Origin: Geminicoccaceae bacterium
GTDB taxonomy: Bacteria > Pseudomonadota > Alphaproteobacteria > Geminicoccales > Geminicoccaceae
Length of the DNA: 64,000 nt
Direction of reading: 5' to 3'
Assembly (NCBI GenBank): GCA_028285265.1
Contig: JANQPX010000013.1
Span: 62,001 to 126,000 of the forward strand
The notes under the pieces were generated by a model. The model was not told the origin of the DNA. It saw nothing but the letters and a program-made list of their open reading frames with translations, and made no database searches. Both the position numbers and the translations under genes were made by a program. Shown here one piece after another: positions 4,794-24,894 of this stretch; position 1 is the stretch's first letter, and each line of letters starts with the position of its first letter.

Positions 4794-6842
4794 CTACAGA
4801 TTAAAGACCTCACCATCCCTAATCACGATCACTTCTTCTAAGTGCTCGATCGGGTAGTCCTCAAACTGCTGCCTTAGGTCATCCACGTCGCCGGCCCAAT
4901 CATTCAGATTGAGAACGATCCGATCGGCCTGTTCCTTCACATTAACTTTATCGTCGATCTCACTCCAGACACCTCGTACCGACTTTGGTTCACCATTAGC
5001 GCCTGTACCCGGTGCGTAGCTATCGAAGTATTCTCCTTCGATCCGATAGTCAGGTCGTGATGGGTTCGGCGAACCATCACGACGAACACGACCATCGGTG
5101 GATGGATTCTGTTCGACACGATAACCTCGGTCAGCCAAAGCATCCGCTGATTCGTTTTCACGAGTCAAAGAGCGTTTGGTTTCCGGATCGTTATTCTCGC
5201 CAATGCGCGTTCTTTGACCATCGGGCTGAGCGCCCTCTGTTCCTGTTGGGGTCACCGGCTGCCCATCGCGAATGACCGAGTCATCTCCAGACGTCGATGA
5301 ATCGTCATTATCGTCTGACGACGGATCGACGAATGGAGCATCACTCGCAGTACTGGGAATAGGCAGGTCAGGGAAGCCCGGCTGAATGTCTGGATCTGCC
5401 GGGGCCGGGACACCTGGCGGCGTCGCATCCGGGCCGCTTGGAATCTCGACTTGTGGCGGGGCGACCGGCTCGGCGCGCGGAGGCGTCGGAGGTTCAGACG
5501 TTGCCGGAATAGGCGGCTCGATGGTTGACGGTATCGTGGGTGCGATCTCAGGTACCGGCGACGGCGCAATCTCTGGTGGTGCGGTCGGCGGGCGACCTGG
5601 CAGCGCATCCGGCGACGTCGGTACAACGTCAGGAGGCACATCGGGCGTCGGCGCCGTAATCCCAGGCGGCGTCGCATCGGGTCCAGGTGGCGCCGTCGTC
5701 TCAGGTCCGATACCCGGCTCAATCGTTGCTGGCTCCGGCGCCTCGATGACGCCTGGCGCTGCGGGCTCGACGACGGCAGGTGCTGGGGGCTCCACAGTCG
5801 CTGGTGCTGGCGGGGCGATCTCCGGTGCCGGAAGACCCTGAAATTCATCTGGATCGTGCAGATTCGGTGACGGATTGGAAAGTCCAATGACATTGCCAAC
5901 ATCGTCATAGGCAGGCGCAGCGCTAATGCCGGTGTCTGACCAGCTGCCGTCCGTATTCAATGTTTCCACGCGTCCAAATAGGTCGCCTGGCGCTCGGGAT
6001 AGTCTTGTATTTTCGTCGATCTGAACCGTTTCGACCTGCGTGTTGGTCGGGGTCAATGTGACGGCAGCGAAGACACCCACAGGGGAGAACCGCCCCGCCC
6101 AGGTGAGGGCCCGTCCCAACAAACTCGGCGTCGTCGGGGCCGTTGGCAAATTAGCTGGAGGAGCCGTCGGCAAATTTGTAGGGGGCGCCGTCGGCACGGT
6201 CGCAGGCGGAGCAACGGGAGGCGGTGCCGGCGTCGCGGGCATGGGCCCAACGAAACCTACCATCGGTGTCGGCGCAAGATCGGTCGTGGGGCTTGGCGGC
6301 GTCAGGCCGGTGAATTCGTCCATATAGCCGAAATTGTTGGCGAGGCTGTTGGTTTCAACGTCGTCCGTCGTCCCCTCCGTGCCAACCGGCGCGCCCGTTG
6401 GGCCAAGACCATCGAACTCGCCGGCATAACCAAAATTGTTATCTCGACCGTTCAGACCGGCCTCAGTATTATTTTCGCTGTCGTCATCGTCGCCGATGCC
6501 AACCGGCCCACCGGTTGAACCCAGACCATCGAATTCACCGGCATAGCCGAAATTGTTATCCCGGCCATTCATGCTCGTGCTTGACGAATCATCATCATCG
6601 GACGAGCTATCGTCACGGCCTAAGGTATCGTTAACAGCTGCATCCATCGCGTCGGCAAAGGAGCCCTGATCACGATCGCTGGATGACGAATCGGAATCAC
6701 GATCGGAACCCGAATGTCCCGAACTGCCGCTATCGTTCACGCCACCAGAACTTGACCCTTCGGAGCCGCTTGGGCCTCCGCTGCCGCCTCCCGAGCTACC
6801 GGCACTGTCACTCGATCCACCAACACCGCCAGGGCTGCCCAT
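4794..6842 (-). CDS. Polymorphic toxin with CdiA-CT-like tRNase C-terminal domain
   Basis: This 682-residue protein is modular. Residues 1-90 are Gly/Ser/Asp-rich. Residues 92-180 hold three NNFGY..EF.GL repeats. Residues 188-240 are Pro/Ala/Thr-rich. Residues 240-340 form a short, more globular segment (LLGRALTWAGRFSPVG). Residues 340-500 are a long Pro-rich linker in which the sequence GPDATPPG occurs twice. Residues 561-682 match the CdiA C-terminal tRNase type: ENESAD.LA..GY.VEQNP, PDYRIEG, FDSYAPG, QADRIVLNLNDWAG, FEDYPIEHLEEVIVI. Such domains cleave tRNA in target cells. There is no signal peptide, lipobox, Rhs, VgrG, LXG or two-partner-secretion domain. The immunity gene follows at once. 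Confidence 0.85.
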   Translation of the reverse strand: MGSPGGVGGSSDSAGSSGGGSGGPSGSEGSSSGGVNDSGSSGHSGSDRDSDSSSSDRDQGSFADAMDAAVNDTLGRDDSSSDDDDSSSTSMNGRDNNFGYAGEFDGLGSTGGPVGIGDDDDSENNTEAGLNGRDNNFGYAGEFDGLGPTGAPVGTEGTTDDVETNSLANNFGYMDEFTGLTPPSPTTDLAPTPMVGFVGPMPATPAPPPVAPPATVPTAPPTNLPTAPPANLPTAPTTPSLLGRALTWAGRFSPVGVFAAVTLTPTNTQVETVQIDENTRLSRAPGDLFGRVETLNTDGSWSDTGISAAPAYDDVGNVIGLSNPSPNLHDPDEFQGLPAPEIAPPAPATVEPPAPAVVEPAAPGVIEAPEPATIEPGIGPETTAPPGPDATPPGITAPTPDVPPDVVPTSPDALPGRPPTAPPEIAPSPVPEIAPTIPSTIEPPIPATSEPPTPPRAEPVAPPQVEIPSGPDATPPGVPAPADPDIQPGFPDLPIPSTASDAPFVDPSSDDNDDSSTSGDDSVIRDGQPVTPTGTEGAQPDGQRTRIGENNDPETKRSLTRENESADALADRGYRVEQNPSTDGRVRRDGSPNPSRPDYRIEGEYFDSYAPGTGANGEPKSVRGVWSEIDDKVNVKEQADRIVLNLNDWAGDVDDLRQQFEDYPIEHLEEVIVIRDGEVFNL
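6303..6569 (-). repeat. Three NNFGY..EF.GL protein repeats within the toxin gene
   Basis: Residues 92-115 and 131-154 share the sequence NGRDNNFGYAGEFDGLG, and residues 168-180 carry a shortened copy (NNFGYMDEFTGL). A degenerate fourth piece, DPDEFQGLP, lies at about residues 330-338. The spacers are acidic. I do not recognise the motif. It could be a recognition or docking element for export. Confidence 0.85.
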
Positions 6843-14611: not shown

Positions 14612-16363
14612 ATGACGCCAACGCCGACGAGCAACCCCAGCTTAGCCTTTCGCCGCGCCGACTTTCAAAGCCTGACGGAAGCGCTCGATTATGCTGCTCA
14701 GGGGGTGACGGGCTTGAATTTTTACTCGGCCCGTGCCGAGCTGGCTGCGACACTCACCTATGCGGAACTGCGCGATCGGGCCACCACCATGGCTCGGGGA
14801 CTGATCCAAGCCGGTATTCAGCCCGGCCAACGATTCGTGCTGCTCGGCGATACCGATCCTGACATCATCATCGGTTTCTTCGCTTGCCAATATGCAAGTC
14901 TCGTCCCCGTGATTGTGCCGATTCCAGCAAGCTTAGGCGGACGAGATGCGTATGTGGAGCAGCTCAAACGGCTCCTAACGAGTTCGGAGGCTGCCGTGGC
15001 GATGGCCCCAGAGGCGTATCTAGGCTTCCTAGAGCAAGCCGTCGCCGGACTGCCGGTCAAACCCATGACCGGCTCGCCGGCCGACTTCGCCGACCTGCCC
15101 GGCGGGGCAGTCGACATCCGCCCCTTCGGCCCCGATGACGCTTGTTATCTCCAATACTCTTCGGGTAGCACACGTTGGCCACACGGTGTGGACGTGCCAC
15201 AGCGTTGCTTGATGGCCAATGGTCATGCAATCGCCGCGCATGGTTTGGACGTTCGGCCTCATGACCGCGGAATTTCCTGGTTGCCGCTCTATCACGATAT
15301 GGGCCTTGTCGGCTTTCTTCTCACCCCACTTCTTTGCCAGCTGACATGTGACTATCTCGCCACTCGGGATTTCGCCCGGCGCTCGCTCACCTGGCTCAAG
15401 CTGATCGGCGACAATGGGAGTTCACTCTCCTACAGCCCCACCTTCGGCTACGATCTTTGTTGCCGGCGCGCGGAGAACACGTCGCAAACCTTCGATCTCA
15501 AGAGCTGGCGCGCTGCTGGCATCGGTGGTGACATGATCCAGCCGCAGGTTATGGAGCGCTTTGCCGATACGTTCGCGCCCCACGGCTTTGATCGAAAGGC
15601 ATTCGTCGCAAGCTATGGCATGGCAGAGGCGACCTTGGCTGTCAGTTTCGCATCCCTCGATCGCGGCCTTCATGTCGATCAGATCGATCGGACAAAACTC
15701 GCGGACGCCCACGTAGCGCTTCCAGTAAGCAGCGATGATATGGGGGAAGGAAGTCGAGACTTTGCCTTTTGCGGTCCTGCTCTCCCCGGTCATGAGATCG
15801 AAGTTCGTGATCGCGAAGGCGTTGTGCTGGATGATCGGCTGGTTGGCAGAATCTTCGTTAAAGGCCCAAGCATTGCCAAGGGCTATTTTGGCGAGCCCGA
15901 GGCCAGTGCACGCGTCTTCAAGGATGGTTGGCTTGACACCGGTGATCTTGGCTATCTCGTGAATGGCGAAGTCGTGATTACCGGGCGCAGCAAAGATCTC
16001 ATGATCATCAACGGCCGCAATATTTGGCCCCAAGACGTTGAATGGGCCGTTGAGGAGTTGGAGGGACTCCGCCGAGGCGATGCCGCCGCCTTTTCGATTG
16101 AGGAATCAGCAGGCGAGCCCGAGGTGATCATTTTGGTCCAGTGCCGCAGCCGGGATTCCGCCTATCGAGAGCAGTTGCGAAAGGACGTCAAAGCCGCCGC
16201 GTCTCGAGCTGTGGCCATCGACGGTGACGTGCTCCTTGTACCGCCGCATAGCCTACCCATGACCTCATCAGGCAAGCTCAGCCGAGCCCGCGCGAAGCAG
16301 AACTACGTGGACGGCCTGTATACAGACGTGGACGAACCACTCGCCATGGCAGCAGGCGACTGA
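14612..16363 (+). CDS. Fatty acyl-AMP ligase / acyl-ACP synthetase of the sphingolipid cluster
   Basis: This 583-residue adenylate-forming enzyme has an FAAL-like nucleotide loop (YSSGSTRWPHGV), AMP-binding motif ASYGMAEATL, and the hinge region TGDLGYLVNGEVVITGRSKDL. It would activate a fatty acid as acyl-AMP and load it on the small acyl carrier protein encoded two genes downstream. Gene order ligase - epimerase-like reductase - ACP - serine palmitoyltransferase is the same as the Caulobacter crescentus ceramide genes (CC_1165 to CC_1162, from memory), where an acyl-ACP synthetase occupies this place. The usual Lys at the end of the P-loop is His here. No strong ribosome-binding site precedes the ATG. 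Confidence 0.85.
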   Translation: MTPTPTSNPSLAFRRADFQSLTEALDYAAQGVTGLNFYSARAELAATLTYAELRDRATTMARGLIQAGIQPGQRFVLLGDTDPDIIIGFFACQYASLVPVIVPIPASLGGRDAYVEQLKRLLTSSEAAVAMAPEAYLGFLEQAVAGLPVKPMTGSPADFADLPGGAVDIRPFGPDDACYLQYSSGSTRWPHGVDVPQRCLMANGHAIAAHGLDVRPHDRGISWLPLYHDMGLVGFLLTPLLCQLTCDYLATRDFARRSLTWLKLIGDNGSSLSYSPTFGYDLCCRRAENTSQTFDLKSWRAAGIGGDMIQPQVMERFADTFAPHGFDRKAFVASYGMAEATLAVSFASLDRGLHVDQIDRTKLADAHVALPVSSDDMGEGSRDFAFCGPALPGHEIEVRDREGVVLDDRLVGRIFVKGPSIAKGYFGEPEASARVFKDGWLDTGDLGYLVNGEVVITGRSKDLMIINGRNIWPQDVEWAVEELEGLRRGDAAAFSIEESAGEPEVIILVQCRSRDSAYREQLRKDVKAAASRAVAIDGDVLLVPPHSLPMTSSGKLSRARAKQNYVDGLYTDVDEPLAMAAGD

Positions 16364-16367
16364 TCTC

Positions 16368-17312
16368 ATGCCGGCCGTCGCCATTACAGGCGGAAGCGGC
16401 TTCATCGGTAGGCGGCTGATCGAGCGACTTGGTCGAGACGACATCTCGGCGAAAGCGTTGATGCGCCACCCGCGCATGCCCTATGATACCCATAACGACC
16501 ATCTTCGCATTGTCCGGGGATCGCTCCAGGACGACGCCGCAATCCGCGAACTGGTTGATGATGTCGATGCCGTCGTTCACTTAGCTGGCCTGATCAAGGC
16601 AAAAAACCGCAGGGCTTTCTTCGATGTCAACGAAGGTGGCGTTCGCCACCTCGCCGATAGGATCGCGGCGTGCCCGAAGCCACCAAAGCTGGTGTTGGTT
16701 TCGTCACTTGCTGCTCGGGAACCAGCCCTCTCAAGCTATGCTGCGAGCAAACGTGCGGGGGAGGAGGTGCTATCGACATTGAAGGAATCGGTGCCCTGGA
16801 CAATTCTTCGCCCGCCGGCGGTCTATGGGCCGGGAGACCGCGAAACGCTCGCTTTCTTTAAGGGCGTCAAACGACGCTTCGGTGTCAAACTTGGTCATGA
16901 GCATGCACGCTTTTCGCTGCTCTATGTCGATGATCTCGTTGACTTGATCCTGGCGGTCATCGCCCCCCAAATCGCGCACAAGCAGACTCTCGAACCGGAC
17001 GATGGCAAGAATGGCGGTCACAGTTGGTGTGGCATGATTGCCGCGGCTGAGAAAGCTCTCGGGGTCCAGTCCATCCGCCTGCACCCGCCCAAGGCTCTGC
17101 TGATGGCTCTTGGCTATGCCAATGTCGGACTGCGTTTGCTGCCCGGCTATACGCCCATGCTAACCCCAGAAAAAGTTAGAGAAATCACACATTTGAACTG
17201 GGTTTCTCATTCTAGATCGATCCCATCTATGACGGATTGGAAACCCAAGACCCCCGTCGACCGCGGCTTTCCGGCAACGATCGACTGGTATCAATTGCAC
17301 AGTTTGTTGTGA
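16368..17312 (+). CDS. cerR: NAD(P)-dependent epimerase-like reductase, CerR-type ceramide reductase
   Basis: A 314-residue extended SDR. The N-terminus has the GGSGFIGRRL nucleotide-binding loop, the middle has AGLIKAKNRRAFFDVNEGG, and the catalytic Tyr-Lys is in SYAASKRAGEE. It starts 4 bases after the ligase stop and precedes the ACP and spt genes. In Caulobacter the protein at the same position, CerR, reduces 3-oxo-ceramide, which is the role inferred here. Annotation pipelines would call it a sugar epimerase; the gene context argues for lipid reduction. Confidence 0.8.
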   Translation: MPAVAITGGSGFIGRRLIERLGRDDISAKALMRHPRMPYDTHNDHLRIVRGSLQDDAAIRELVDDVDAVVHLAGLIKAKNRRAFFDVNEGGVRHLADRIAACPKPPKLVLVSSLAAREPALSSYAASKRAGEEVLSTLKESVPWTILRPPAVYGPGDRETLAFFKGVKRRFGVKLGHEHARFSLLYVDDLVDLILAVIAPQIAHKQTLEPDDGKNGGHSWCGMIAAAEKALGVQSIRLHPPKALLMALGYANVGLRLLPGYTPMLTPEKVREITHLNWVSHSRSIPSMTDWKPKTPVDRGFPATIDWYQLHSLL

Positions 17313-17427: not shown

Positions 17428-17670
17428 ATGACCCAAGATTATGTCAAGCACGTCATCGCCGTTTTGCAAAAGTTTGACAAAACGGGAAAAACCATCGGGG
17501 CAGACACCGATATCGCTGCTGAGCTGGATTTGGACTCGCTCGCTGTGATGGACGTGGTCATGGAGTTGGAAGACGGTCTCGATATCTCCATTCCTTTAAA
17601 TCTAATTCCCGATATTCGAACGGTGGGCGATTTGGCCGACACGATTGGTCAGTTGAAGGAGGAAACCTGA
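17428..17670 (+). CDS. Dedicated acyl carrier protein of sphingolipid synthesis
   Basis: An 80-residue acidic ACP with the phosphopantetheine attachment site in ELDLDSLAVMDV. It is not the housekeeping AcpP, whose neighbours would be fabD/fabG/fabF. It sits between the CerR-like reductase and the serine palmitoyltransferase, 3 bases before the latter. It probably receives the acyl chain from the acyl-AMP ligase and presents acyl-ACP to serine palmitoyltransferase, as proposed for Caulobacter. The end of this gene contains the strong AAGGAGGA ribosome-binding site of spt. Confidence 0.9.
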   Translation: MTQDYVKHVIAVLQKFDKTGKTIGADTDIAAELDLDSLAVMDVVMELEDGLDISIPLNLIPDIRTVGDLADTIGQLKEET

Positions 17671-17673
17671 ACG

Positions 17674-18891
17674 ATGTCACTGTTTCAACGTTTTGAGCAC
17701 CTGGCCCAGTCACATCGTGCCGTGAAAGACATCGGCGCTGATCCTTTTCGCGTGCGTATCGATCGTGTTCTCTCGCCGACCGAGGCAATGATCGGCCGTA
17801 AGCGCATTCTGCTTGCCGGCACCAACAACTATCTTGGGCTGACGTTCGATGCGGGCTGCATCAGTGCGGCGGCGTCAGCGTTGGAGTCCCTTGGCACTGG
17901 CACAACCGGTTCCTCGATCGCGAACGGTCACTATGGCGGGCACCGAGCCCTGGAACAGGCGCTTGCCGCCTTTTTCGGTCATGAGCACGGCATGGTGTTT
18001 ACCACCGGGTACCAAGCCAATCTTGGTATCATTTCGACTGTCGCCGGCCCCGACGACTATCTCCTCATTGACGCGGACAGCCATGCCAGCATCTACGATG
18101 CTTGCAAAATGGGTCAGGCTACCGTGATCCGTTTCCGCCACAACGACCCGAAAGATCTCGATCGCCGCCTAGCACGCCTCGCCAAGGAGCCGGGCAACAA
18201 GGTCGTCGTGGTCGAAGGCATCTATTCCATGCTCGGCGACAAGGCGCCTCTCAAAGAGATCGTCGAGGTCAAGAAAAAGCATGGCGCATATCTGATCGTC
18301 GATGAAGCCCACTCATTTGGCGTGCTCGGCGAGAAGGGTTTGGGGCTCGCCGAAGAGGTTGACGTCGAGGCTGACGTCGACATGGTCGTCGGCACATTTA
18401 GCAAAAGCTTAGGTGCCGTTGGCGGCTTTTGCGTCTCCAGCCTGCCCGACTTCAACATCCTCCGCGTTGCTTGCCGTCCCTATATGTTCACCGCATCGCT
18501 CCCGCCATCGGTGATCGCGTCAGTTCGCGCTGCCCTCGAAACCATCAAGCAGCGGCCTGAACTCATGGCTACGCTTTGGGACAATGTGCATCACTTTTAC
18601 GATGGCCTTGCGCGTCGCGGCTTTTTGCTCGGCGACCAACCCAGCCCGATCGTTGCTGTCCGCCTGCCCAGCCCGGAGCTCGCTGTCCATATCTGGCACC
18701 AGCTGCTGGAAGCCGGCATCTACGTCAATCTTGCCCTTCCGCCGGCAACACCTTCCAACGAAGCCCTGCTTCGCTGCAGTGTGTGCGCAGCGCACTCGAA
18801 GGAGCAACTGAGCAGCATCATTGAGACGCTGACCAGCATTGCCTACGAGACGGGCCTCCTCGAAGCTCCAGCTCGAGCTGCCGCCATCTGA
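17674..18891 (+). CDS. spt: Serine palmitoyltransferase (alpha-oxoamine synthase family)
   Basis: This 405-residue PLP enzyme condenses serine with an acyl thioester to 3-oxo-sphinganine, the first step of sphingolipid synthesis. The PLP lysine is in VGTFSKSLGAVGG; DEAHSFGVLG gives the Asp and His that hold the cofactor; GTGTTGSSIANGHYGGH is the substrate-binding glycine-rich block. Related family enzymes are KBL, AONS (BioF) and ALAS. Context with ACP, CerR-like reductase and acyl ligase favours serine palmitoyltransferase over BioF. AAGGAGGA lies ahead of the ATG. It converges with the minus-strand nucleotidyltransferase gene 55 bases downstream. Confidence 0.88.
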   Translation: MSLFQRFEHLAQSHRAVKDIGADPFRVRIDRVLSPTEAMIGRKRILLAGTNNYLGLTFDAGCISAAASALESLGTGTTGSSIANGHYGGHRALEQALAAFFGHEHGMVFTTGYQANLGIISTVAGPDDYLLIDADSHASIYDACKMGQATVIRFRHNDPKDLDRRLARLAKEPGNKVVVVEGIYSMLGDKAPLKEIVEVKKKHGAYLIVDEAHSFGVLGEKGLGLAEEVDVEADVDMVVGTFSKSLGAVGGFCVSSLPDFNILRVACRPYMFTASLPPSVIASVRAALETIKQRPELMATLWDNVHHFYDGLARRGFLLGDQPSPIVAVRLPSPELAVHIWHQLLEAGIYVNLALPPATPSNEALLRCSVCAAHSKEQLSSIIETLTSIAYETGLLEAPARAAAI

Positions 18892-18946: not shown

Positions 18947-19870
18947 CTATCTGACGGCGCTTAGCCTATAGACACGCCAAAGTAATCTTGGCGCATTCAA
19001 GATTGGATGTCGTCGCTCGAAGCTGCTGAGTGGCACCCGAACACCGGTATGGCGTTCCACCTTCCAAAGTGCGTAATCGACACCGCCTTGAAACGTAAAC
19101 AGGCTTTTCGTCAGACGAAGGACGGAGAGTGGTTTGCCGATAAGGCGTCGCACCCTCCAATAGCGCTGAGCTCGGCCGATATCATCTGCAGTCGCCTGAT
19201 GAGCAATCAAGCCGTCCTCGTTGAGCCGCCCCGAAAAGATGAGGCGTGCCATCTCGTCATAACGTGCGGCATCGGCTCGGTAGATGGTGGCGGCACGTTC
19301 AGAACTCTCGGGACGAAGTTCAGCGCGGTAGGTCTGCCGTAGCGCTTCTTGCCAAAGATCTTCAGGGCTTGCTGGCGATGTGACCAAAGGCGCCGACGTT
19401 CTGAGCATGGTTTTGATCGCTTCGCCGATCGCTTGGGTCACCATGATCCGTGCGTCGTCATCTCGCCCATAAAGCATCACGACCGGCTGAGAGAAACGCG
19501 CCCAGAGCGACGGGTGCAAGGCCGCCGATGAGGTGCCCCTCACAAACTGATCACGACTAACGACGGCATATTTCGCTCGCACGACATGGCCCTGCCAAGC
19601 CTGCTCGATATAGAAGACATTCGGCGGCAGGACGCTGTTAGCCCATGCTTGCCAACGGCTGGTGAAGGCATCCCGAAAGCGATCAACAATCAGATAGAAA
19701 TCTTGGACGCCTTCTGGAGGATCGTCAGCTGGGTCCTGTCTCAGGCAGGACCCATAGAAGAGAACGGCAGCAACCGTTGCGCCGTGTCGCGCCCGAATGG
19801 CCTCAGCCAGCGCCTGGGATGACGGATGGACAATCCGGCCAAGCTCCGCCACCACAGCCTCCTCAAGCAC
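18947..19870 (-). CDS. Nucleotidyltransferase-fold protein of the sphingolipid cluster
   Basis: A 307-residue protein with a degenerate nucleotidyltransferase signature near its N-terminus: LFYGSCLRQDP, then an acidic VQDFYLIVD strand. The C-terminal half is helical and basic. Its ATG overlaps the end of the lipid-kinase gene by 8 bases, so the two form one operon. A nucleotidyltransferase-like protein is, as I recall, one of the three Caulobacter genes (CCNA_01217 to 01219) needed to turn ceramide into ceramide phosphoglycerate. By analogy it may take part in building an anionic head group. The specific reaction is inferred, not seen. Confidence 0.7.
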   Translation of the reverse strand: MLEEAVVAELGRIVHPSSQALAEAIRARHGATVAAVLFYGSCLRQDPADDPPEGVQDFYLIVDRFRDAFTSRWQAWANSVLPPNVFYIEQAWQGHVVRAKYAVVSRDQFVRGTSSAALHPSLWARFSQPVVMLYGRDDDARIMVTQAIGEAIKTMLRTSAPLVTSPASPEDLWQEALRQTYRAELRPESSERAATIYRADAARYDEMARLIFSGRLNEDGLIAHQATADDIGRAQRYWRVRRLIGKPLSVLRLTKSLFTFQGGVDYALWKVERHTGVRVPLSSFERRHPILNAPRLLWRVYRLSAVR

Positions 19871-20849
19871 CAGAGGCTCCGGTCAAAAACGTCTGATGGC
19901 GATCGCCGGTCAGTTGGATCGGCAAACCTGGTTCGGGCAAGAATACCTCACCGTCGAGGACGACCGGACTCTTGATGTCGAGGGTCATCGCGTCGACCGA
20001 GCCAGATCGGTACCCCTCCGCAACCATCCAGCCCTTAGGGCGGCCACGCAACACCGGCACGATCGCTCGCGCAAGACGCTTCGGTGGAAAATCCACGCTC
20101 GTGTACCGAATTGTCCGTCCGGTTCGGGTTGCAGGGCTAACGTGCGTGCTATCCCAGAACGGGGAAAGACCGAGGATCAAGCGGTGTAGTGTCGTAGCGA
20201 TCAGAAGAAGATAGGGTTTCTCTTTGCAGTGTTCGTCATCAAACGCGATGGACATCGGCTCGCCTCGATAGAGCGGATCATCCGCATTGACCCGACCGAA
20301 CAATAACCGACAAAGCGACAGCACCAACGTGGACGCCGAGGCGAGATTGTCAGCGACCCCGTGGGTGCGGACGCGCTCGTTGGCAAGCTTCACTGCCTGA
20401 TAGAAACCTGCCGCACCAAAAAACATGCCATAGACTGCCGGCTCATGAGGTTTCAAGACAAGCCCAATCAGCGGTCTCTTTACCTCATGTGTCGCGTCGC
20501 CCGTCAACAGGCGCTTGAGCCCCTTCGCTGGCGCCCCCGCAAGGCCGACATCCTTGGCGATGACATTGGTCATACCTCCGGCGAGCACGGCGAGTTTTGG
20601 CGCATGGCCGTTCAGATCGCGTCGAGCAAGTTCTGTTAACACCGCTTGCACCGTGCCGTCGCCGCCATTCACAGCGATCACGTCGACACCGCGCCGGATC
20701 ATGTTGACAATCATGGGCCCAAGATCTTCAAAATCCCAAAGTGCCTCATGACGAATACCCTCATGAGCCGCCACAAGCTTTAAGGCTTCGAGCGCTCCCT
20801 TTCGGTTGCGCTGACTTCTCGGGTTGCTGATGACAGCGAGACGTCCCAT
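19863..20849 (-). CDS. Diacylglycerol/ceramide-kinase-like lipid kinase
   Basis: A 328-residue lipid kinase of the DAGK catalytic family. It begins with the typical GRLAVISNPRS strand, has the nucleotide-binding NGGDGT motif (about residue 64), and the following GGMTNVIA block. The ATG at 20849 fits the family start; the frame continues 27 codons upstream without homology. In Caulobacter the corresponding gene, cpgB, encodes a ceramide kinase. Given spt next door, ceramide is the likely substrate, making ceramide 1-phosphate at the cytoplasmic membrane. Diacylglycerol or another lipid remains possible. It is divergent from the metallophosphoesterase gene. Confidence 0.85.
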   Translation of the reverse strand: MGRLAVISNPRSQRNRKGALEALKLVAAHEGIRHEALWDFEDLGPMIVNMIRRGVDVIAVNGGDGTVQAVLTELARRDLNGHAPKLAVLAGGMTNVIAKDVGLAGAPAKGLKRLLTGDATHEVKRPLIGLVLKPHEPAVYGMFFGAAGFYQAVKLANERVRTHGVADNLASASTLVLSLCRLLFGRVNADDPLYRGEPMSIAFDDEHCKEKPYLLLIATTLHRLILGLSPFWDSTHVSPATRTGRTIRYTSVDFPPKRLARAIVPVLRGRPKGWMVAEGYRSGSVDAMTLDIKSPVVLDGEVFLPEPGLPIQLTGDRHQTFLTGASGA

Positions 20850-21019
20850 GTGTATTCGATCAGCTCCAGATTGACCGAAGACCGGCGAACAGCTTCCGGA
20901 ATTCGTCGTTGGCTTCATGGAGAATCGCACCTATCTCCATGAATGAAAAAATCAGCCCGCTTGACTTAACCGAGCAGGACGGACATCAAAGGGCGGAATG
21001 TTCACGATATGTATGGCGC

Positions 21020-21952
21020 ATGTTAAAACTCGCTCACCTCTCCGATCCGCATTTGCCGCTTCCCGACCAGGTCGACTGGCGGGATTTGATGAACAAACGG
21101 GTGACCGGTTACCTCTCCTGGCACCGCCATCGCCGCCATGTGCATGATCGGCGCGTCCTGGCCGCCCTGCGCAACGATCTGGAAGACTGCCGTCCCGACC
21201 ATATGGTCGTTACCGGCGATCTGACCAATCTTGCTCTTCCTGCCGAGTTCGACCAAGCGATTGACTGGCTTTCGGAGCTTGGCACACCGGATGACGTCAG
21301 TGTCATTCCAGGCAACCACGATGCCTATATCGAGGCCCCATGGAGTCAGTCATTCGGCAGGCTCGCCGCCTATATGACGCAAAATCACGGGGAAATGAAG
21401 TCGCTAGCCGCATCTTTTCCCTATGTGCGCAAAGTTGGCCGAGTAGCGATTGTCGGCGTTTCAAGCGCCATCCCAACACGGTGGTTCTCGGCAGCTGGCA
21501 TGATCGGCGAGGAGCAGCTTCTTCGTCTCCGTGCCGTCTTGGACGAGCTTGGTGAGGAAGGTTACTTCCGCACCGTCATGGTCCACCACCCTCCTATTGA
21601 AGGGTCAGCACGGGTCAGAAAGCAGCTTCGAGACGGCAATGGCTTTCGTCAGGTGATCGGTGAGGCAGGCGCCGAACTCGTCCTGCACGGCCATAATCAC
21701 CGTTTCGATCAAGGCGAGGTGAAAACACCGCTCGGCCAAGCGCCCGTTATCGGCGTACCGTCGGCATCCGCTTGGCCGCGCCATGGCATGAAACCGGCCG
21801 CGTATCATATCTACCGGATCAGCGCGACGCCGGATGGTTGGAATATCAGGGTGGAGGTCAGGCGGTTTGATCGACGCATCGAACGTTTCGTCGCCCAACC
21901 CGGCCAAACCCTCTCTGTACCAGCGGCAGTCAATGCAGCGTCTGCTGCCTAA
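21020..21952 (+). CDS. Calcineurin-like metallophosphoesterase of the sphingolipid cluster
   Basis: A 310-residue class III metallophosphoesterase with all metal motifs: HLSDPHLP (D, H), VVTGDLTN (D), PGNHDAY (N, H), MVHHPP (H) and LHGHNHRF (H, H). No signal peptide is present from the ATG at 21020, so it acts in the cytoplasm or at the inner membrane surface. Divergent from the lipid-kinase operon and 20 bases before the HIT gene. A phosphoesterase is part of the Caulobacter anionic-sphingolipid gene set, so it may process a phosphorylated head-group intermediate; this is inference from context. Confidence 0.8.
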   Translation: MLKLAHLSDPHLPLPDQVDWRDLMNKRVTGYLSWHRHRRHVHDRRVLAALRNDLEDCRPDHMVVTGDLTNLALPAEFDQAIDWLSELGTPDDVSVIPGNHDAYIEAPWSQSFGRLAAYMTQNHGEMKSLAASFPYVRKVGRVAIVGVSSAIPTRWFSAAGMIGEEQLLRLRAVLDELGEEGYFRTVMVHHPPIEGSARVRKQLRDGNGFRQVIGEAGAELVLHGHNHRFDQGEVKTPLGQAPVIGVPSASAWPRHGMKPAAYHIYRISATPDGWNIRVEVRRFDRRIERFVAQPGQTLSVPAAVNAASAA

Positions 21953-21972
21953 AGCAGCCAGGAGCCCTGCGC

Positions 21973-22470
21973 ATGACGCAGGGTCATGAAATAAATCTGT
22001 CGTTCGAGGGGGAGTGGATGCCGCCATCGACAGCCAACAATCCGACGCAACAGCGTTTTGAGTATCCCGGGCTGCTCGTCAAGGATTTTGAACACTGGTC
22101 CGTAACGCTACGACGACACCAGGTGACCCTCGGTGCTTTGGTGCTGCTTGCTAAGTCGAATGCCACCACCTGGCCCGAACTCGACCGGACCGCCTTCACC
22201 GAACTCAAGGATGTCACGGTATCGATTGAACGCAGCCTTAGCGCCCTCTTCGGCTATGATAAGATCAATTATCTAATGCTGATGATGGTGGATCCCAACG
22301 TCCATTTTCATGTGTTTCCCCGTTATCAGCGCACCGTCGCCTTTGCCGGTATCGACTTCGCTGATGCGGGCTGGCCAAAGGCGCCCGATCTCGCAAGCGG
22401 ACCGACGCTTGATGATGACATGGCGATGCGGCTGATCGCTCATATGAAGAGCGATTGGAGAGGCGCGTAG
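21973..22470 (+). CDS. HIT-family hydrolase/transferase
   Basis: A 165-residue protein with the histidine-triad motif, seen as NVHFHVFPRY near residue 116. The central part (GALVLLAKSNATTWPEL) matches HIT-type nucleotide-binding proteins. HIT enzymes cleave or transfer nucleotidyl groups through the middle His. AGGAG lies 8 bases before the ATG. The gene follows the metallophosphoesterase by 20 bases and probably shares its transcript, so it may act on a nucleotide-linked intermediate in the same pathway. Confidence 0.8.
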   Translation: MTQGHEINLSFEGEWMPPSTANNPTQQRFEYPGLLVKDFEHWSVTLRRHQVTLGALVLLAKSNATTWPELDRTAFTELKDVTVSIERSLSALFGYDKINYLMLMMVDPNVHFHVFPRYQRTVAFAGIDFADAGWPKAPDLASGPTLDDDMAMRLIAHMKSDWRGA

Positions 22471-22606
22471 CGCGGCCGTATGGTTGGCGTTGACCATCGC
22501 CGCCCCGTTCGCTGTAACGGGATTGGACCTTGAGAAGCCCGCGTCGGTCTGGCACGTCGCGGGCCATGATGGCGATTGCCTGTCGCCGGGGAACAATGGA
22601 CCATCC

Positions 22607-23788
22607 GTGACGATCATCGACCGCTATTTGATCCGACACACGCTGTCACGCTTTGCGATCCTGCTCGGGATCGTGCTGTTCGCTCTTCTCATGGAGCGCC
22701 TGGTTCGGCTTCTCGATTTGGTCGCGACCAAAAACACGCCCTTCGACGTGGTCGGTCGTCTGATGCTCAATCTTGTGCCGCACTATCTGAGCCTTGCGCT
22801 GTCCACAGCCTTTTTCATTGCGGTTCTGATGGCGATCATTCGGCTCCGCGAAGATAGCGAGCTCGATGCACTCTATGCGGGTGGCATCAGCCTTTATCGC
22901 ATCGCGCGGCCGATCTTTGGGCTTGCCTGCCTCCTGTGCCTTCTCGGTGCCTTGATCATCGCTTTCCTGCAGCCTCAGGCCCGCTATGGCTATCGCAATC
23001 TGATGCACTTTGCGGGCTATGGCAGCTGGTACAATGTCTTGGAGAGCGGCGCGTTCTTGACGGGCATCGACGACATGACCATGACCGTCGGCAGCATTTC
23101 GAGAGACGGGCGAGAGCTGACGGACGTCTTCTTTCATGAACGCAAGAAAAATGGCGAATTGAACACGCTCACTGCTGAACGCGGAAGCTTTGATATTAAT
23201 GAGAGCGACAAGCTCGTTCTGACCTTGGAGAACGCAACTCAGCTCATCGATGGCGGCGGTGACAAAGAACCTCTAGTGGTTCGGGTAAAGCAGTTCTCGC
23301 GCGAAATCGAAACGCTCTTCGCGCCCCCTCCGTTCCGGCCGCGGGGCGAGGACGAACGCGAGCTAACACTGATCGAGCTTTGGCAATGGGATGGCCCGCC
23401 ACCAAAACGATCAACCGTCGACGAGATGGCAGCGGAGTTGCACTCGCGAATCGTTCGCATCGTCTCGATCCTCTTCTTGCCACTCCTCGCCGTTGCGTTG
23501 GGCGCGACATCGCCAAAGCGTCGCCAAGGCTTGAACTTAGCGATCGGGCTCTTCTTACTCGTGGCCTATAATGAAGTTCTGCAGTTCGGAAAACGCCTGA
23601 TCAAGGATGGGGAGATCTCGGCATGGCTCGGGCAGCAGGTGCCGATGCTCCTCTTCATCGTACTCAGCTATTGGATGTTTGCGCGCGCTGCGAGTCAGAA
23701 TTCGGGGAGCAGTGGCGGCTCGTTGACCGTGCTTTATGACCGCCTCGTCCACCTCATCGGCCGCATTCGGCCGGCGTCCGGCACCTGA
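22607..23788 (+). CDS. lptF: LptF-type permease of a lipid export ABC transporter
   Basis: A 393-residue YjgP/YjgQ permease. Helix 1 follows IDRYLIRHTLSRF, then MERLVRLLDLVATKN, the family's typical first loop. Three membrane helices lie in the first third and three in the last third, separated by a periplasmic beta-jellyroll domain (about residues 130-270). GTG at 22607 is chosen because family homology starts there; the frame upstream is unconserved. Its TGA shares a base with the ATG of lptG. LptF and LptG together move lipopolysaccharide from the inner membrane to LptC. Here the pair lies next to sphingolipid genes rather than with lptD-surA. Confidence 0.9.
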   Translation: MTIIDRYLIRHTLSRFAILLGIVLFALLMERLVRLLDLVATKNTPFDVVGRLMLNLVPHYLSLALSTAFFIAVLMAIIRLREDSELDALYAGGISLYRIARPIFGLACLLCLLGALIIAFLQPQARYGYRNLMHFAGYGSWYNVLESGAFLTGIDDMTMTVGSISRDGRELTDVFFHERKKNGELNTLTAERGSFDINESDKLVLTLENATQLIDGGGDKEPLVVRVKQFSREIETLFAPPPFRPRGEDERELTLIELWQWDGPPPKRSTVDEMAAELHSRIVRIVSILFLPLLAVALGATSPKRRQGLNLAIGLFLLVAYNEVLQFGKRLIKDGEISAWLGQQVPMLLFIVLSYWMFARAASQNSGSSGGSLTVLYDRLVHLIGRIRPASGT

Positions 23789-24894
23789 TGTCGATCCTTA
23801 GCCGGTATCTCTCCCGTATCTTCATCGGCCAGCTGCTGATGATCATGTTCTGTGCCATGGCATTGCTGCAGCTATTCGATCTGATGAGCAATGCTGACGA
23901 TTTGCTCCGTGATATGAAGGGCCAATCCCACGTTCTCCTTCGTTATACGCTGCTTCGACTCCCTGATCTGATCACCTTCATTACCCCCTTCAGTGTGCTG
24001 CTCGCCGCGTTGATGGCATTTGGTCGACTACATCGGCATAGCGAGCTCGTCGCGATGCAGGCTGCGGGGCGATCAGTGACGCAGATTGTCCTGATGCTTC
24101 TGCCAGCCCTTCTCGCCGTCTCATTTCTGCATTTTTTGGTCAGTGATCAGCTGACACCAAGAACCAACCGCGCGCTCGCGGATTGGCTGGCGGCGAGCGA
24201 GACGAGAAAATCCAACGACGTCGCGCTTTGGCTACGCGATGGTGATCATCTCGTGAGCATCGGTAAGATCGAGGATGACGGTCGGCGGCTGGAAGACGTT
24301 GTTATCTTTAAGCGCACAGAGAGCGGCAGCCTGAACGCCCAGACCAAAGCTAAGAACGCTCAATTCGATCGCGGAGCCTGGTGGCTGAACGAGGTCAGCG
24401 ATCTAACAGCAATACCCGGCACCTCACCCTCCGAGGCGCAAATCTCACGACAACCATGGCATACGGGGGTCCAGCCCGGTCTCGTCCAAGACCTTGCGGT
24501 CGCCCCCAATGCCCTGTCCATCGCAAGGCTCAAACGCGTGCTCGACCACCCCGAGGTCGGCAGTCGGCCCATGCATGTTTATGAGACCTGGTTACATAAG
24601 AGCTTCTCGCAGCCGCTGGTTTCTATCTTCATGGCAGCCCTCGCAGCCGCATCGGTTCGCGGTCTGCAGCGCCAAGGCGGTGTGGTCACCAATGCCTTGG
24701 TCGGCTTTGGTGGCGCCTTTCTTTACTTCGTTGCCGACGGTGTCCTGCAAGCACTGGGCGAAGCTGGCTCGGTCCGCCCTGCCCTCGCCGCCTGGTTGCC
24801 ACTTGTTCTGTTAGCCTCGATCGCCACCGCCGTCGTGACCTGGGTCGCCGCACCACGCGGTCGGCGCAAACCAGGGGTTATGCCGGGCACGTAG
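23788..24894 (+). CDS. lptG: LptG-type permease of a lipid export ABC transporter
   Basis: A 368-residue YjgP/YjgQ permease, the partner of the preceding LptF. It has the N-terminal SRYLSRIFIGQLL helix, a second helix block around PDLITFITPFSVLLAALMAFGRL, the conserved SELVAMQAAGRS loop, and a C-terminal group of three helices. A central periplasmic domain is at about residues 125-255. The start overlaps the lptF stop by one base, so the two are translated together. No lptA, lptB, lptC or lptD is adjacent. Confidence 0.9.
   Translation: MSILSRYLSRIFIGQLLMIMFCAMALLQLFDLMSNADDLLRDMKGQSHVLLRYTLLRLPDLITFITPFSVLLAALMAFGRLHRHSELVAMQAAGRSVTQIVLMLLPALLAVSFLHFLVSDQLTPRTNRALADWLAASETRKSNDVALWLRDGDHLVSIGKIEDDGRRLEDVVIFKRTESGSLNAQTKAKNAQFDRGAWWLNEVSDLTAIPGTSPSEAQISRQPWHTGVQPGLVQDLAVAPNALSIARLKRVLDHPEVGSRPMHVYETWLHKSFSQPLVSIFMAALAAASVRGLQRQGGVVTNALVGFGGAFLYFVADGVLQALGEAGSVRPALAAWLPLVLLASIATAVVTWVAAPRGRRKPGVMPGT

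Follow-up and report, generated by a model that had tools for sequence, protein, structure and literature searches.

LptF and LptG form the inner-membrane pump part that normally draws lipopolysaccharide (LPS) from the membrane. In Caulobacter crescentus, the products of CC_1168, CC_1156 and CC_1155 have been named LptC2, LptF2 and LptG2, and a role in phosphosphingolipid transport was proposed for them (Olea-Ozuna 2024, PLoS Pathog, PMC11324152); mutants in CC_1156 (LptF2) show a cofitness of 0.60 with CC_1159, a gene of sphingolipid head-group synthesis (PMC11324152). Another group noted that no transporter had been identified for bacterial sphingolipids (PMC11087976), and both reports describe the route of these lipids to the outer membrane as open (PMC11087976, PMC11324152). 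Here we analyze an LptF/LptG pair encoded among sphingolipid genes in a 64,000-nucleotide stretch of a Geminicoccaceae genome (assembly GCA_028285265.1, contig JANQPX010000013.1, positions 62,001 to 126,000), referred to below as the window. This pair very probably supplies the membrane-spanning portion of a second Lpt-type ATP-binding cassette (ABC) extractor, one dedicated to the anionic (phospho)sphingolipids produced by the adjoining genes. As in Caulobacter, it is a second LptF/LptG copy with the same proposed role. The sphingolipid-transport idea is thus already published for that organism as a proposal; what is added here is genome-wide evidence, in the form of a permease swap in lineages devoid of lpxC. 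In the literature searched, which mostly excluded preprints and subscription journals, we found no description of such lineages losing the canonical pair.

Two LptF/LptG pairs in one genome

The window genes, which we call lptF2 (22607..23788, + strand) and lptG2 (23788..24894, + strand), encode a genuine LptF-LptG pair. Both products exceed curated cut-offs (TIGR04407, 230.8 bits vs. 230 for LptF2; TIGR04408, 254.9 bits vs. 240 for LptG2) and score about 230 and 226 bits, respectively, with PF03739, for which the cut-off is 27.9. The LptF2 stop and the LptG2 start overlap by one base. A preliminary description of this DNA had recognized the pair, but placed the start of the feature at 21020, which is the ATG of an upstream metallophosphoesterase gene; LptF2 likely begins at a GTG at 22607 and is then 393 residues long. 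An AlphaFold model of LptG2 (pLDDT, a per-residue confidence score, 88) has the membrane helices and periplasmic beta-jellyroll of the LptG fold, and its best PDB matches are the LptG chains 6mit_G and 6mjp_G, with TM-scores of 0.83-0.87.

The window genome contains four PF03739 genes: the window pair and a second pair on another contig (C62). The second pair adjoins the only LptD gene of the genome in the order pepA | lptF-lptG-lptD-surA-rsmA, so that the arrangement cited in the preliminary description as typical of many alphaproteobacteria, with lptF-lptG preceding lptD, is seen in this very genome, away from the window. LptB, LptA and LpxC are each encoded once, and lptC, lptA and lptB are consecutive; this canonical LptC was missed by a Pfam search at the genome level, yet scores 31 bits when tested as a protein. 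The assembly was scored 7% contaminated. Contamination was considered as a source of the two pairs and is unlikely, because the guanine-plus-cytosine content and tetranucleotide profiles of three contigs match between contigs as well as within them, the window contig, the canonical lpt contig and other contigs being similar in composition; LptB, LptD and LpxC are, moreover, single.

We use S-type for LptF/LptG encoded by spt-linked genes, spt being the gene for serine palmitoyltransferase (Spt), and canonical for those linked to lptD. Pairs from a panel of 114 alphaproteobacterial genomes (one per family, two from the family of the window) divide cleanly by similarity, and a single branch separates the two types, with Shimodaira-Hasegawa-like approximate likelihood ratio test (SH-aLRT) supports of 79 in the LptF tree and 93 in the LptG tree. 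In each tree the canonical group of the alphaproteobacteria carries a star (99) and has long branches, and the window pair falls outside it; the placement of Escherichia coli LptF/LptG relative to the two groups is uncertain. The window pair is therefore neither the sole pair of its genome nor a member of the group of standard LPS exporters, the combination that the preliminary description had named as refuting its dedicated sphingolipid exporter. That proposal is supported by copy number, by the trees and by the Spt-linked occurrence described below, from which we infer transport itself.

Replacement of the canonical permeases in genomes lacking LpxC

Sixteen panel genomes encode a true Spt (over 500 bits). 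An S-type pair was present in 14 of them and in none of 32 examined Spt-negative panel genomes (p = 2e-10; this and the following Fisher p values treat genomes as independent, although related genomes are not). Among LpxC-positive panel genomes, two pairs were found in 6/7 with Spt and in 1/89 without it (p = 5e-8), the remaining 88 having a single pair. Nine Spt-positive panel genomes lack LpxC; eight of these encode one pair and the ninth (G055) none. In all eight the single pair is S-type, and in seven it lies at most 13 kb from spt, which in the eighth is on a short contig.

A result that goes beyond the preliminary description is that these genomes, having kept only the S-type pair, nevertheless retain the rest of the machinery: LptD, LptA and LptB were present in 8/8. 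The same three proteins were absent from G055 and from five Spt-negative, LpxC-negative genomes without LptF/G, absence of LptB being judged by a strict cut-off that also missed it in one ordinary genome (G001). LptD was thus found in 0/6 LpxC-negative panel genomes devoid of LptF/G (p = 3e-4). LptC stays beside lptA in most of the LpxC-negative genomes examined. The canonical operon was inspected in four LpxC-negative genomes with an S-type pair, and in all four its order is pepA | lptD-surA-pdxA/rsmA; lptF-lptG are not at the site between pepA and lptD that they occupy in LPS producers, as though only the standard extractor had been deleted naturally.

A wider sample came from scanning 84,980 genomes with a profile; this gave 346 relatives, from which 80 loci were retained. 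lptG2 adjoins lptF2 in all 80. Among the 51 loci flanked on each side by 8 kb or more, spt was present in 43, a ceramide kinase-like gene (cerK) in 45, a conserved 307-amino-acid gene in 48, the metallophosphoesterase gene in 44 and a small HIT-like gene in 27. Thirty of the genomes, mostly of named species, served as a replicate set. Exactly two PF03739 genes, i.e. one pair, were found in 7/7 LpxC-negative members, which include Dongia mobilis, Vineibacter terrae, Fodinicurvata fenggangensis and Marinimicrococcus flavescens, as compared with four or more in 22/23 LpxC-positive members (p = 4e-6). The LpxC state switches at least 6 times on the LptF2 tree. Occurrence of the S-type pair is not tied to LpxC, as it is the sole pair in eight panel genomes and seven further genomes that lack this enzyme; in both genome sets the pair follows Spt, the pattern for which the preliminary description had suggested looking.

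A proposed shared Lpt bridge and its alternatives

The window type resembles the canonical LptB2FG(C) complexes of E. coli, Klebsiella and Vibrio (PDB 6mhu, 5l75, 6mjp, 6mit) in protein families, fold and gene pairing, and in the glutamates that contact LptB. It differs in standing apart from the alphaproteobacterial canonical group, in its linkage, which is to sphingolipid genes rather than to lptD, in being kept without lpxC and in mostly lacking the LptG K40/K41 basic pair. LptF E84 and LptG E88 are the coupling-helix glutamates that touch LptB (PMC5548808); both are kept in the window pair and in all 39 aligned S-type sequences, and they are near-invariant in canonical ones. Because the two types share these residues, one LptB can plausibly serve both permeases. 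LptG K40 and K41 contact the 4'-phosphate and inner core of LPS (PMC6744409). These positions are Arg or Lys in canonical alphaproteobacterial LptG and mostly acidic or small in the S-type, a difference that fits a different lipid head group but does not prove one. K40/K41 separates the two LptG types better than K34, R133 and R136, which were rejected as markers, since Asp or Glu occurs there in canonical alphaproteobacterial LptG too. At positions 29-30 of LptF, the S-type carries a Glu-Arg that is almost invariant.

S-type LptF2/LptG2 would extract an anionic sphingolipid and plug into a common LptB-LptA-LptD bridge. A common bridge is indicated by the LpxC-negative genomes, which keep only the S-type pair yet retain LptB, LptA and LptD. 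In the simplest scheme, both extractors of LpxC-positive cells would work in parallel and feed one LptA-LptD bridge, while in lineages without lpxC, which presumably lack LPS, the canonical pair would have been lost and the common machine would run on sphingolipid alone. We consider it likely that the Lpt bridge is modular in this sense, with one LptB/LptA/LptD set and two interchangeable LptF/LptG extractors, for LPS and for sphingolipid, and that several alphaproteobacterial lineages devoid of lpxC dropped the LPS extractor to leave a sphingolipid-only line via LptD. The swap would provide one candidate system for sphingolipid export to the outer membrane and would account for the persistence of LptD without LpxC. 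It also suggests that LptF/LptG is the lipid-selecting part, and comparison of the two permease types could reveal the residues that choose the substrate.

Several observations weigh against a dedicated sphingolipid extractor of this kind. G064, which is Spt-positive and LpxC-positive, has only a canonical pair; G055 is Spt-positive with no Lpt genes found; and G129, an LpxC-positive metagenome-assembled genome, has only an S-type pair. The LptF2 tree offers only four well-supported independent pairs, all of them concordant, a number with which a sign test cannot reach significance. In addition, LPS status was judged from LpxC alone, and several LpxC-negative genomes retain a KpsF/KdsD-like gene beside lptC. 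The last two points would also suit an explanation in which a modified lipid A, or some other large glycolipid, is made independently of LpxC in the LpxC-negative genomes and is the cargo of the S-type pair, the sphingolipid link being secondary. We regard this as improbable, because S-type pairs also accompany Spt where lpxC and a canonical pair are present, and because the nearest genes of the pair are those of ceramide synthesis and modification.

The pair could otherwise serve LPS export redundantly or as a back-up and lie near sphingolipid genes by chance, as its families and fold are the same as those of LPS exporters. The LpxC-negative genomes, in which it is kept and the canonical pair is lost, already largely refute this view; the pair is also nearly always found within sphingolipid genes and forms a group of its own, and we give chance proximity very little credence. 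A further alternative accepts the sphingolipid substrate but has the pair bypass LptA-LptD, for instance by passing the lipid to a different acceptor or by working in retrograde fashion. We deduce transfer to LptA and LptD from co-retention alone, and no second LptC turned up near the pair: Caulobacter has the proposed LptC2 (CC_1168), whereas a profile derived from lptA-linked LptC detected no LptC-like gene in the window locus or the related S-type loci, to which this search was confined. Retention of LptA, LptB and LptD in every LpxC-negative S-type panel genome, together with the absence of LptD where LptF/G is absent, nevertheless makes off-bridge transport a poor prospect compared with hand-over to the common bridge.

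Sphingolipid genes around the pair and related loci

The sphingolipid block of the window begins with genes for an aasR-like fatty acyl-AMP (adenosine monophosphate) ligase of ceramide synthesis (14612..16363, + strand; NF006624, 776 bits, cut-off 600) and a cerR-like epimerase/reductase dependent on nicotinamide adenine dinucleotide (NAD) (16368..17312, + strand; PF01370), both of which are kept in related loci. They are followed by genes for an acpR-like acyl carrier protein (17428..17670, + strand; PF00550, E = 3.7e-10) and Spt (17674..18891, + strand; NF047599, 658.7 bits, cut-off 500). On the opposite strand lie the 307-amino-acid gene (18947..19870, - strand), which has no Pfam family and occupies the position of Caulobacter CC_1161, and the ceramide kinase-like gene (19863..20930, - strand; DAGK_cat lipid kinase, PF00781, E = 3e-13), at the position of CC_1160. 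The metallophosphoesterase (21020..21952, + strand; PF00149, E = 3.9e-12) corresponds in position to CC_1158 and the small HIT-like protein (21973..22470, + strand) to CC_1157. By gene order, the only comparison made, the window matches Caulobacter from CC_1162 (spt) to CC_1155 (LptG2), with ceramide kinase, phosphoesterase and a small gene after spt.

That the pair follows a metallophosphoesterase gene of the sphingolipid block, as the preliminary description stated, is borne out; the HIT assignment made alongside it is weak, consisting of a PF01230 match below the cut-off (E = 0.017) and a VHFHVFPR motif. The genes on the 3′ side of lptG2, encoding a glyoxalase, Upp, a phosphonate-binding protein and a chromate transporter, are indeed unrelated. 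Upstream MFS and MaoC genes were considered as components of the system and rejected, as they are not conserved in related loci.

Near spt in G064 (L078, L077), the ceramide kinase and 307-amino-acid genes are also missing. The S-type pair may therefore be tied to the head-group genes more than to spt itself. G055 (L079), a genome that is complete at 5.4 Mb, has aasR-cerR-spt and neither of these two genes near spt; LptF/G, LptA, LptB (strict cut-off), LptD and LpxC were not found in it. In G080 (L072, L080), S-type lptF-lptG, cerK and the 307-amino-acid gene share one contig, and a different contig carries spt, cerR and aasR.

The one Spt-negative, LpxC-positive panel genome with two pairs (G018, L081:6996-17365) encodes a third, very divergent LptF/LptG type (82 and 76 bits). 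Its cluster contains genes for an Spt-like aminotransferase, myo-inositol-1-phosphate synthase, a short-chain dehydrogenase/reductase (SDR), a cytidine triphosphate (CTP) transferase, a glycosyltransferase and a cytidine diphosphate (CDP)-alcohol phosphatidyltransferase, and the pair may export an inositol sphingolipid as a system of its own. In the replicate set, Gluconacetobacter liquefaciens (G125, L162) has six PF03739 matches, i.e. more than two pairs, and Azospirillum picis (G128, L168) has five, one of them short and below the cut-off. Elsewhere in the window, at 4794-6842 on the - strand, lies a gene whose product contains CdiA_C, a toxin domain of contact-dependent growth inhibition (E = 8.9e-15).

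Two variations were seen at the lptA locus of LpxC-negative genomes. In G112 (L235), a KpsF-like gene directly adjoins lptA-lptB with no lptC between them. In G029, G118 and G120 (L247, L248 and L243, respectively), the LptA reading frames contain two tandem LptD_N domains and encode a longer bridge protein.

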